Assembly (NCBI GenBank): GCA_009838645.1
Contig: VXRC01000036.1
Span: 1-32,710 of the forward strand
Source: Gemmatimonadota bacterium
Lineage (GTDB): Bacteria; JAAXHH01
Direction: 5' to 3'
Length of the DNA: 32,710 nt
Each line of letters starts with the position of its first letter. Within the stretch, counting starts at the first letter, position 1. This document shows, one piece after another, positions 28,195 to 30,952 of the stretch. Below the pieces are notes generated by a model that saw only the letters and a list, made by a program, of their open reading frames with translations, was not told the DNA's origin and made no database searches. The translations under genes were made by a program, and so were the position numbers.

Positions 28195-28407
28195 TCACCG
28201 GGAACCGCTGACGACGGACCACAGGAAAACCGCCATGCCCGCGAGGACGAGCACGGCCCCCAAATACAGGAACAGGGTCATCGAGACCGGGTGGATCCAG
28301 AACAGGGTCGCCAGTTCCACGACGAGGCCCGCCGCGATCAGCCCGCCCGCCATGTGAAGACGTCCGACCCTTCCATTTCGCTCGACGAACTCCCGCGAAC
28401 CATTCAT
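28195..28407 (-). CDS. small two-helix membrane protein
   Basis: 70 residues. A charged N-terminus (about 1-17) precedes two hydrophobic helices (about 19-38 and 43-66). GAGGTGA sits a few bases before the ATG. It is the last gene of the minus-strand cytochrome group, 65 bases after the tetraheme gene, with a palindrome in between. It ends three bases from the convergent VOC gene. No family recognised; it may help anchor or assemble the cytochromes (inference from position only). Confidence 0.7.
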   Translation of the reverse strand: MNGSREFVERNGRVGRLHMAGGLIAAGLVVELATLFWIHPVSMTLFLYLGAVLVLAGMAVFLWSVVSGSR

Positions 28408-28472: not shown

Positions 28473-29099
28473 TCACTCTCCCGCCTCAGGTTGCCATCGT
28501 CCGAACCGGTCCAGCTTGTCCACCTCGTGCACCAGGTTGTGGCAGGTTACGCATGACCTTGTGCCGTCGAGGAGTTCGCCCAGATAGGGGCGGTGGTCCG
28601 GATGCTCCTCGTACGTCCGCGCGCCCGCATGGCATTCGAGACAAGCCGTGTTCTCGAATGGCTCGTACAGCGCGACCGGCTCCGACCACGTCCCCCAGAC
28701 GTTGTGCCAGACGTGCCGGACGCCCCGGATCTTGTCGTCAACGTCCCCGAACATCGTGTAGTCCGAATGGCACGCGTAGCAGGCGCGGTCCGCGGGGATC
28801 CGCCTGTTCTGGAAATGGGCGGCGGGCAGAAACCGCCCGTCGTCGATATACAGGCTCTCTTCGAAGGGTTTATTGACGTGGCAGGAAACGCAGAACTCGG
28901 TCGACTTGGCCTGCTCGTAATGCTGCACGGTGCCGCCGAGCAGCGCCACGCCGGGCAGCATGAAGAACGTGAAGAAGGCGAATAACATGCCGCCGGCCGA
29001 GGCGGTGAGGTCGGGCCGCCGCAGGATGACCGCGATCATGGCCAGCGTGACGGCCGCCAGGAAGATCAGGGTGATGGTGAATCCTGTCAGTCCGGCCAC
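28473..29099 (-). CDS. tetraheme cytochrome c, NapC/NrfH/HaoC-like quinol dehydrogenase
   Basis: 208 residues. Two hydrophobic stretches (about 5-26 and 35-57) are followed by four CxxCH heme sites at 70, 107, 153 and 183. NapC/NrfH-type proteins take electrons from membrane quinols and pass them to a periplasmic multiheme reductase. One anchoring helix is usual; the extra N-terminal hydrophobic segment is unusual. The start is a GTG with ACAGGAG nine bases upstream. It lies 26 bases after the octaheme gene, the same partnership as haoA-haoC of epsilon-proteobacteria. Confidence 0.87.
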   Translation of the reverse strand: MAGLTGFTITLIFLAAVTLAMIAVILRRPDLTASAGGMLFAFFTFFMLPGVALLGGTVQHYEQAKSTEFCVSCHVNKPFEESLYIDDGRFLPAAHFQNRRIPADRACYACHSDYTMFGDVDDKIRGVRHVWHNVWGTWSEPVALYEPFENTACLECHAGARTYEEHPDHRPYLGELLDGTRSCVTCHNLVHEVDKLDRFGRWQPEAGE

Positions 29100-29125
29100 T
29101 CGGTTCGACTCCTGTCCCCGGCCGC

Positions 29126-30532
29126 TTACTCCAACGTCGCGCGTCGGCCAGCGTCTTCACGAAGTTCCCGGTCGAGCGCCCTGATCTCGGCCAGGTCCTG
29201 CACCATTTCGCTCCAGCCGTACCACAGCGCGTAATCCGGGTTGTTGTGGAAGGTGCCCTGGAACGCCCGCATGCGGTGTTCCAGGTGCATCCTGAAGAGC
29301 CGCTGCTCGATCCTCGAAGGCGCGTCGTGGAAGGCCAGCAGGTCGGGATAGTCGTATGCATAGTGTTCCGGGCGGACCAGTATCCCGTCCCGGTACAGCG
29401 CTCCGACGATACGGACGGCCTCGGCCAGGAGCCGGTCGGTCTCGCGGATCATCTCGTCGCCCTTTTCGAGTTCCGCACGCACGAGATTGCCCGAATGGCA
29501 CTGCTCGCAAATCCCGGTCATGCGGTCGCGCTCCCGCTGCCAGTCCGCCTGGGTCAGCCGGGCCACGTCGGCCTGCCTGACCACTTCCAGGCGAGGGGTG
29601 GGGTTGCCCGCGGGGTCCAGCACGCCGAGCGCCTGGAGGATGGTGGTCCGGTCCTCCGCCCACCGCGGGTCTTCCGGCAGGGGCAGGCGGACGGCCAGGA
29701 ACCCCCACGCGGTCCGCACGCCATGATCACCTTGGGGCATGTGGCAGGTCTGGCAGGTGGGCGCCTGGGCATGTTCCGGCAGCGTGCCGTTCTGCTTGAG
29801 CAGGTGTCGCACGCCGTGCTTGGAGGATGAGTACATCTCCCACTGGGGATGGTCGAACCCCATGTGGCACGTCCTGCACGCCTGGGGCTCCCGGGCTTCC
29901 TTCACCGAGAAGAGATGGCGGGTATGGCAGACGTCGCAGGACGACAGGCCGAACAGCCCGTCCTGCGCCTTGATCGTCTTGATTTCCTCCTCGGTCTTGA
30001 GGCCGATACGGTGGCATCCGCCGCAACCCTTCATGCCCTCGGTCAGGGCCATGGGCAGGAAGTGGGTCGTCGGCATGGCGTTCATGCTGGTCCAGGCGAG
30101 GGAGTGCTTGCCCCCCGCGAACTGCTCCACCTGGATGGGATGGCACGTGGCGCACACGTCCGGCGTGGCGACGCCGGCCAGGGCCACGTCCTCCTCCGTG
30201 CGGTGGTCGCCGCCGTGACACATGACGCAGTCCACGCCGTTCGTGCTGTGGGTGCTGAGTTCCCAGTCCGTGACGATGCCGGGGGTGGCGTCCTGGTGGC
30301 AGGTCACGCAGTCGGACGTGGCTGCGGGTTGATCGGTGGAAGGGCCGCAGGCTGTGAGCGACAGAATGAAGAGCGACAATATGAAGAGCGGAAGAATGAT
30401 GCAAGACAAGGTGGTGCGAATGGCGGGGCGGAGAAGGATGACGCGGAATCCGGACTTAAAGAGGAAACTGGCCTTCGAGAGGAAGCATCTCCTGGAAGAC
30501 AGAAGCGTCAGGCCACCGGATTTCCCATCCAT
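29126..30532 (-). CDS. octaheme cytochrome c lipoprotein, hydroxylamine-oxidoreductase (HAO)-like
   Basis: 468 residues. A lipobox (LTAC, lipidated Cys62) is followed by eight CxxCH sites at 75, 102, 127, 170, 199, 219, 260 and 342. Heme spacing and flanks match the HAO family: heme 4 GCGGCH precedes CDVCHTRH, and heme 6 has CRTCHMGFDH then SSKHG. The C-terminal helices end in HNNPDYALWYGWSEM. In ammonia oxidisers HAO oxidises hydroxylamine; homologues paired with a NapC-like protein are thought to reduce nitrite or hydroxylamine. The downstream tetraheme partner favours the reductive direction. The heme-crosslinking Tyr of true HAO lies near the C-terminus; whether one of the Tyr here is equivalent needs an alignment. 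The ATG at 30532 has GAGG six bases upstream, giving an unusually long N-terminal segment before the signal. Confidence 0.9.
   Translation of the reverse strand: MDGKSGGLTLLSSRRCFLSKASFLFKSGFRVILLRPAIRTTLSCIILPLFILSLFILSLTACGPSTDQPAATSDCVTCHQDATPGIVTDWELSTHSTNGVDCVMCHGGDHRTEEDVALAGVATPDVCATCHPIQVEQFAGGKHSLAWTSMNAMPTTHFLPMALTEGMKGCGGCHRIGLKTEEEIKTIKAQDGLFGLSSCDVCHTRHLFSVKEAREPQACRTCHMGFDHPQWEMYSSSKHGVRHLLKQNGTLPEHAQAPTCQTCHMPQGDHGVRTAWGFLAVRLPLPEDPRWAEDRTTILQALGVLDPAGNPTPRLEVVRQADVARLTQADWQRERDRMTGICEQCHSGNLVRAELEKGDEMIRETDRLLAEAVRIVGALYRDGILVRPEHYAYDYPDLLAFHDAPSRIEQRLFRMHLEHRMRAFQGTFHNNPDYALWYGWSEMVQDLAEIRALDRELREDAGRRATLE
30356..30400. repeat. 15-base tandem repeat in the octaheme signal peptide
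   Basis: GAGCGACAGAATGAA, GAGCGACAATATGAA and GAGCGGAAGAATGAT stand head to tail. On the minus strand they encode the repeated FILSL of the signal-peptide hydrophobic core, so the core length could change by slippage without loss of frame. Confidence 0.85.
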
Positions 30533-30550
30533 CTTGTACCTCACGGAAGG

Positions 30551-30952
30551 TCATTGGCGGTTCTCGACGGCTTGCCGTCGCACCTCGTCATTCATCAGCA
30601 CATCCGCGACGATCGCCACGATGTAGAACTTTCCTTCGAGCAGGTGTTCGTTGCTGTAAATGGGTTCCAGTTTTATCCACCTTCGGAGGTTCAGGTTCCC
30701 CCGGACCGTGTTGAAAATCACGTCGTAGAACTTCTGCGTATCGTCAAACACCCAGTCCTTCGTAAAGATGATCCAGAAACCGATCTCTTCGGGTATGCCG
30801 TCCCAGTCGTTCGCGACCGCCCAGTTGATCTCGATTTCCGGATCGCTGTCGTATTTGATGGATTTCGATTCCGTGCCCTTGACGATGCGGATATGCAGAT
30901 CCATATCGTTGATCCGGCTGAGCACGCCGTTCACGTCCTCGATGATGGCCAT
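30551..30952 (-). CDS. hypothetical protein upstream of the octaheme gene
   Basis: 133 residues without signal peptide, cysteines or membrane helices, so cytoplasmic. It is rich in Asp, Glu, Ile and Trp and looks like a mixed alpha/beta domain (EIEINWAVANDW, FWIIFTKDWVFDD, KFYIVAIVADVL). GGGAG lies five bases before the ATG. It is 18 bases before the octaheme gene and 31 after the methyltransferase-like gene, all on one strand, so it belongs to the operon. I recognise no family. Confidence 0.75.
   Translation of the reverse strand: MAIIEDVNGVLSRINDMDLHIRIVKGTESKSIKYDSDPEIEINWAVANDWDGIPEEIGFWIIFTKDWVFDDTQKFYDVIFNTVRGNLNLRRWIKLEPIYSNEHLLEGKFYIVAIVADVLMNDEVRRQAVENRQ

Follow-up and report, generated by a model that had tools for sequence, protein, structure and literature searches.

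Gene set and flanking reading frames

The window, by which we mean the whole stretch of DNA analysed (32,710 nucleotides), lies on contig C36; the assembly is 3.8 Mb in size and 97% complete. Three co-directional genes on its minus strand encode an octaheme cytochrome c, a tetraheme cytochrome c and a protein of 70 amino acids, with the following features.

29126..30544, minus strand: octaheme HAO-fold cytochrome c, predicted lipoprotein; 472 amino acids from the GTG start, eight CxxCH motifs
30347..30358, minus strand: lipobox LTAC with Cys66 of the octaheme; a similar lipobox in 21 of the best 80 loci
30011..30025, minus strand: CGGCH, the motif of heme 4, which aligns with the catalytic heme of HAO
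29939..30010, minus strand: spacer of 24 residues between the heme-4 and heme-5 motifs; 5-6 residues in NeHAO, KsHOX and 6h5l
29849..29854, minus strand: Asp231-His232 (GFDH) of the octaheme, aligned to GVDH of HAO
29213..29224, minus strand: Trp441-Tyr442-Gly443-Trp444 of the octaheme; Trp441-Tyr442 invariant
28473..29099, minus strand: two-TM tetraheme cytochrome c of the NapC/NirT superfamily, predicted quinol dehydrogenase; 208 amino acids, four CxxCH motifs
28195..28407, minus strand: protein of 70 amino acids, third gene of the unit; two hydrophobic stretches, judged by eye

An octaheme gene with a lipobox and a co-directional tetraheme gene 26 bases further on had been proposed in the initial annotation, and both reading frames were confirmed on the minus strand. 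The gene for the 70-residue protein, which follows the tetraheme gene after 65 bases, was absent from that annotation and is the third co-directional gene of the set. Which start codon the octaheme uses is uncertain, since the leaders of its relatives differ in length, and the ATG at 30532 given in the initial annotation is an alternative to the GTG at 30544. Directly upstream of the octaheme lies a reading frame of 133 amino acids (window 30551-30952, minus strand), with relatives at the same place in the loci L033 and L034; it gave no match in Pfam, NCBIfam or PHROGs.

Heme motifs, fold and active site of the octaheme

The CxxCH motifs of the octaheme are located at residues 79, 106, 131, 174, 203, 223, 264 and 346. 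In an alignment of 64 sequences, comprising the window and 63 of the best 80 octaheme loci (identity to the window octaheme of at least 63% among these 63), all eight motifs were found in 63 of the 64, the exception being L104, in which the fifth is missing. The eight heme sites noted earlier are thus borne out and not due to chance. The spacer between the heme-4 and heme-5 motifs is 24 residues long in 62 of the 64 sequences and 25 in one, with no value for L104. Cys66 of the lipobox lies 13 residues ahead of the first heme motif, and from this lipobox the lipid anchor claimed in the initial annotation is likewise predicted.

The assignment to the HAO fold family also held, given the eight motifs, a PF13447 match (80.7 bits against a cut-off of 21.9) and the agreement with 6h5l, which was the best match both by sequence (E 1.7e-27; by profile E 3.8e-41) and by structure (VIA Z 19.6 over 340 residues, rmsd 4.9). 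The next structure matches were HAO, HOX, HDH and Ignicoccus OCC at VIA Z 16-17, with NeHAO at 17.1, and for NrfA and ONR the values were 8.1 and below. An NrfA- or ONR-like enzyme was ruled out, since the octaheme sequence contains no CxxCK. The AF2 model of the octaheme is modest (mean pLDDT 72.3), with pLDDT below 50 at model residues 97-119, 134-155 and 162-171, corresponding to hemes 4, 5 and 6 and the Asp-His pair. Because the model is weakest at hemes 4-6, the following statements on the pocket rest on sequence.

The heme-4 site resembles that of HAO in part: the Asp-His pair that follows heme motif six, and that by alignment belongs to the distal side of heme 4, is retained in all 64 sequences, whereas the crosslinking tyrosine appears to be replaced by Trp or Leu. 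The crosslinking tyrosine of N. europaea HAO, which we take to be Tyr467, is by count in the alignment the Y of WTYTEGW, and it aligns either to Trp441, when counted from the conserved upstream G..H, or to Leu440, when the profile is used. In neither register is this position occupied by Tyr in any of the 64 sequences. All of them carry the motif (A or S)-(L, F, W or M)-W-Y-G, whose second residue is the one at the profile position. One residue past the crosslink position lies Tyr442, which is invariant in the family and whose place is taken by His in most of the WHG clade (described below) and by Trp in HAOr. We think that Tyr442 is not the crosslinking tyrosine, albeit an alignment shift of one or two residues would make it read as such.

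In the available part of PMC12758564 the key site is described as His in reductive and Tyr in oxidative enzymes, with a further change to Tyr within Desulfobacterota, and excerpts of the same paper and of PMC12485887 report that HAOr, which is without the crosslink, reduces nitrite to NO, though slowly. For the window octaheme, the residues at this site make a reductive rather than a nitrifying role likely. On the other hand, with an invariant Tyr next to the crosslink position an oxidative role is conceivable, in which the same three genes would work in the forward direction: the octaheme would oxidise hydroxylamine leaked by ammonia oxidisers, and the electrons would pass via the tetraheme to the quinone pool and on to a terminal oxidase. 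Tyr442 speaks for such hydroxylamine oxidation and the Trp or Leu found at the crosslink position in both registers speaks against it; on the evidence here and below we consider it unlikely.

Phylogeny and distribution of the octaheme and the tetraheme

Two octaheme trees were compared. The more careful one has 51 rows with bootstraps, 20 of them from the window family, and 14 of 45 other rows were dropped from it for length or redundancy. The quick one has 86 rows, made up of 41 of the 64 family sequences and the 45 others, and leaves out three repeats, reading frames with fewer than seven hemes and the second multiheme proteins of L066, L068, L088 and L097. Three distant octahemes from a plasmid search served as named references. 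In the 51-row tree the window family formed a clade of its own (20 rows, support 99/97), a second clade united HAO, HOX, HAOr and the R. pomeroyi protein (4 rows, 98/83), and a third, of 24 rows (100/100), is here called the WHG clade after the motif of most of its members. The same grouping emerged from the 86-row tree, where the clades comprise 41, 4 and 38 rows and the HAO/HOX/HAOr group has a weaker support of 88. L012 and L131 joined the window family and L118 the HAO side. L118, the best PF13447 match among 384 genomes, is a protein of 581 amino acids with nine motifs, a C-terminal hydrophobic stretch and a WYG motif, placed on a long branch near HAO.

Sequences like those of the window family were found at more than 300 bits in 29 of the 384 genomes, the sources of the outlying L012 and L131 included, and the nearest records bear the name Candidatus Latescibacterota. 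From its sequences the clade looks very conserved over many phyla and otherwise secreted; a literature search found no biochemistry for it. The position of the family on the HAO/HOX/HAOr side of the tree agrees with the oxidation of hydroxylamine. Relatives in Desulfobacteraceae and Syntrophaceae, families known mostly as anaerobes, count against it, as does the location of some relatives near genes of the NO- or oxygen-stress type.

In 21 of the best 80 loci (L033-L052 and L096) the first heme is preceded by a lipobox at a distance of 12-15 residues. Judged by record title, all of these are from Latescibacterota and Acidobacteriota groups except L034, a Gemmatimonadetes bin, and L043, Candidatus Versatilivorator. 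Downstream of the octaheme, 18 of these 21 loci have a full tetraheme gene; in L040 and L043 it is cut by the contig end, and in L034 the contig ends at most 12 bases past the octaheme. When the window tetraheme was used as tblastn query (E 1e-3), none was found in the other 59 of the best 80 loci, among which the downstream stretch is short in L069 (305 bases), L076 (388) and L110 (584) and L090 is without a full octaheme. By eye, the octahemes of loci without the tetraheme mostly start with an ordinary-looking signal peptide. Lipobox and tetraheme co-occur in one subclade, mostly of Latescibacterota and Acidobacteriota, and the gain of the lipobox is one change on the 51-row tree. The pairing of octaheme and tetraheme looks independently acquired.

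Four more matches to the lipobox expression were rejected, with a tetraheme in none of these loci: the distance to the heme is 74 residues in L095 and 45 in L108, where the match falls in another multiheme reading frame; in L112 the match lies inside an ordinary-looking signal peptide; and in L076, where 10 residues separate it from the heme, it is uncertain. At L051 (6723-9264) the tetraheme region looks duplicated, with a fragment and a copy of the 70-residue gene beside the octaheme and the full set 1.6 kb further on.

All 18 related loci that encode a full tetraheme also have the gene for the 70-residue protein, which was found in none of the octaheme loci without one (tblastn, E 1e-3 in both cases). 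It also stands behind the tetraheme relatives L199, L200 and L201, where an octaheme is absent from the stretch read. The protein had no PHROGs match and two Pfam matches, both under the cut-off.

The tetraheme passed PF03264 (44.5 bits against a cut-off of 24.1) and reached 27-34 bits with the NCBIfam models NapC, napC_nirT and NrfH, whose cut-offs are 134-349. With this match, four hemes and hydrophobic membrane segments it has the features of the NapC/NirT superfamily, and the NapC/NrfH-like partner of the initial annotation is upheld at the level of the superfamily, with a likely function, predicted from sequence, as quinol dehydrogenase. It does not belong to the NapC/NrfH/CycB type, which is defined by a single TM: it has two hydrophobic segments, and in a tree of 30 rows (11 relatives and 11 octaheme partners against seven haoC-like proteins and one NrfH) the two-TM tetrahemes form a clade apart from the haoC-like and NrfH rows, with support 99/99. 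Two hydrophobic segments are present in 10 of the 11 relatives and one in L204. Profile matches to the tetraheme occur in 21 of the 384 genomes; its structure model is poor (pLDDT 53).

In the WHG clade a NapC/NrfH-type tetraheme lies directly upstream of the octaheme in at least 8 of the 38 rows (L115, L117, L119, L120, L123, L124, L129 and L140), a lower bound, as the flanks of most of these loci extend no further than about 1 kb. At L115 (2251-7131, a Desulfosarcina ovata plasmid) the NapC/NirT gene and the WHG-clade octaheme have norR and a gene for a nitric-oxide reductase as neighbours, a hint that this clade is used in connection with NO.

The octaheme-tetraheme pair had been likened to haoA-haoC of epsilonproteobacteria. 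The general plan of that comparison stands, but in trees that hold no named epsilon sequence the octaheme falls into a separate clade, and its tetraheme is downstream and of the two-TM kind. That the window set is a member of the haoA-haoC module is, in our judgement, quite improbable. The lack of the crosslink Tyr in the octaheme and the NapC/NrfH-superfamily tetraheme beside it, parts of the kinds described for Nautilia in the available part of PMC3701875, would fit membership, and so would the Calditrichota relatives in the window family, since an excerpt of PMC5317091 calls the Caldithrix octaheme beside Nap eHao. However, the gene order is reversed, there are two TM helices instead of one, and both proteins belong to clades separate from the upstream-NapC kind. 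Short peptides read from the Nautilia primers (PMC3701875) and compared with the tree rows gave no clear pointer to epsilon HaoA.

The surroundings of the 11 tetraheme relatives were also read. The L208 tetraheme immediately follows a NapA-like gene (652 bits against a cut-off of 904), and in L206 a reading frame of 213 amino acids separates the tetraheme from NapA (1075 bits), with a NapB-like gene also there; by analogy, these NapA-type neighbours of two relatives support the predicted quinol oxidation by the tetraheme. L199-L203 have three CxxCH motifs each, and their fourth heme site looks like CxxxCH. A monoheme cytochrome adjoins the tetraheme in L198-L203 and L205, and L199, L202, L203 and L205 also encode a protein of about 400-500 amino acids with one CxxCH, which in the two cases scanned (L202 and L203) has no Pfam match. 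Tetraheme, monoheme and one-CxxCH protein are possibly an undescribed quinol-linked porin-cytochrome-like system.

These monoheme neighbours of the near relatives, together with the larger one-CxxCH protein of four loci, bear on another reading of the window set, in which the octaheme would carry out no N-oxide chemistry and would only pass on what it receives from the tetraheme, the electrons ending up on an acceptor in the outer membrane or outside the cell. The residue after the lipobox Cys, which is Gly and not Asp, is in line with such a conduit, as by the E. coli rule Gly rather than Asp at this place allows an outer-membrane location. A wire would, however, hardly need the HAO active-site Asp-His pair that is kept in 64 of 64 sequences, and we give a pure conduit little chance.

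Genomic context, proposed role and known systems

The octaheme is the sole PF13447 protein of the genome, in which NrfA, NirK, Hcp and NirS were sought and not found. NorB belongs to PF00115, and because the only PF00115 protein of the genome matches CtaD (669.3 bits against a cut-off of 670.75), an NO reductase of this family is absent. A nitrate reductase was not found either: among the molybdopterin proteins, one exceeds the cut-off for formate dehydrogenase, a relative of PhsA/DMSO reductase stays below the cut-offs, and NuoG falls just short of its own. Nitrite would therefore have to come from outside. That the other N-oxide reductases sought were missing from the genome is a point for the octaheme as a reductase of such compounds. 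The CtaD-type oxidase makes an aerobic, oxidative role thinkable, against a reductive one, and its presence in a genome where the N-oxide reductases sought were not found is a further point for hydroxylamine oxidation. So is a survey of sponge Latescibacterota which, in the part available, counts hao as hydroxylamine oxidation and thus as nitrification (PMC12993501); if that hao is the window gene, its sequence would argue for the reverse, with N-oxides as electron acceptors.

Among 12 genomes of the genus, that of the window included, the octaheme is intact in 6, has an internal stop in 1 and was not found in 5, so that it is dispensable in the genus unless assembly gaps explain the absences. 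In L013 (G011:C275) the stop codon lies within the octaheme and the tetraheme is intact; in another genome of the genus, at G009:C33:21502-21576, what remains is a match of 25 residues to the beginning of the query.

From loci without the tetraheme, 104 of 176 listed neighbour proteins were scanned. Pfam matches included six hemerythrins, five NapH-type ferredoxins, four DUF438, four rubrerythrins and three Rrf2 proteins, and desulfoferrodoxin was also found near the L066 octaheme. In clusters of flanking proteins (within 8 kb), NapH-like proteins occurred in six loci and Rrf2, DUF438-hemerythrin, ResB and a second octaheme-like protein in five each; the largest cluster consisted of shadow reading frames opposite the octaheme, from which it is clear that the gene calling was crude. 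The neighbours hint at a link to stress, nitrosative or oxidative, and at quinol dehydrogenases of other kinds. With no Pfam family in more than 6 of the 104 proteins, these signals are weak for a reductive reading.

We propose that the three genes would form a membrane-bound respiratory or detoxification module. Quinol would be oxidised by the two-TM tetraheme protein, with the 70-residue membrane protein perhaps as a subunit, and the electrons would be transferred to the lipid-anchored octaheme, where heme 4, lacking the tyrosine crosslink of HAO, would reduce nitrite, NO or hydroxylamine from outside the cell. We hold this route from quinol to the N-compound to be probable, albeit with reservation; the structure of the genes, their conservation, the clades and the co-occurrence were observed, and the direction of the electrons, the substrate and the formation of a complex are what we infer. 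One lineage of a widespread, secreted-looking octaheme family would have gained a lipobox and would then have been joined to a pair of tetraheme and small protein that elsewhere stands without an octaheme. Relatives of this pair are also found with NapA and with porin-cytochrome-like genes, and the quinol dehydrogenase module has apparently been reused with different terminal enzymes.

More tentatively, the set may represent a second quinol-to-octaheme N-oxide module besides haoCA and NrfHA, independently assembled from a lipoprotein octaheme and a transferable pair of tetraheme and 70-residue protein, common to Latescibacterota and Acidobacteriota, and scavenging nitrite, NO or hydroxylamine from the ammonia oxidisers of a host; we would not yet call this wider picture probable. 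Several of the carriers in these two phyla are, judging from bin names, presumably sponge symbionts.

In the available parts of PMC5317091, PMC5276818 and PMC5220378 related octahemes are named HAO, HaoA homologues or eHao, and in the last of these a nine-heme HAO of a Parcubacterium adjoins a tetraheme of the NapC/NrfH family. For a lipoprotein octaheme with a two-TM tetraheme no description was found in a literature search that had subscription papers mostly outside its scope.

N. europaea HAO (4fas, 1fgj) and the R. pomeroyi HAO-like protein (L116) share the fold, the heme pattern and the Asp-His pair with the window octaheme. The latter differs in having no Tyr at the crosslink position, and whereas haoB adjoins the HAO-like gene of R. 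pomeroyi, no HaoB- or c554-type neighbour was present among the genes scanned in the window. The nitrite reductases NrfHA and ONR are likewise multiheme proteins, NrfA with a quinol-oxidising partner, but they are set apart by the CxxCK motif and by VIA Z of at most 8.1. The quinol dehydrogenases NapC, NirT and NrfH have in common with the window tetraheme a PF03264 match over the cut-off, as well as the NapA-type genes beside two of its relatives, but have one N-terminal hydrophobic segment instead of two.

Epsilonproteobacterial HaoA with CycB/NapC (haoA-haoC, reverse-HURM) shares the combination of an octaheme with a tetraheme of the NapC/NrfH superfamily, and for it a flow from quinol to nitrite is proposed in the available part of PMC3701875. 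The clade with upstream one-TM tetrahemes, compared here without a named epsilon sequence, has mostly WHG where the window family has WYG. The HAOr complex of K. stuttgartiensis (PDB 6h5l, kustc0457/kustc0458) has the HAO fold, eight hemes and the Asp-His pair in common with the window octaheme and, counted from the upstream anchor, also Trp at the crosslink position. The two are nevertheless distant from each other in the tree, with an end branch of 2.2, their heme-4/heme-5 spacers are 5 and 24 residues long, and it is the window octaheme that has a lipobox and a two-TM tetraheme as its neighbour.
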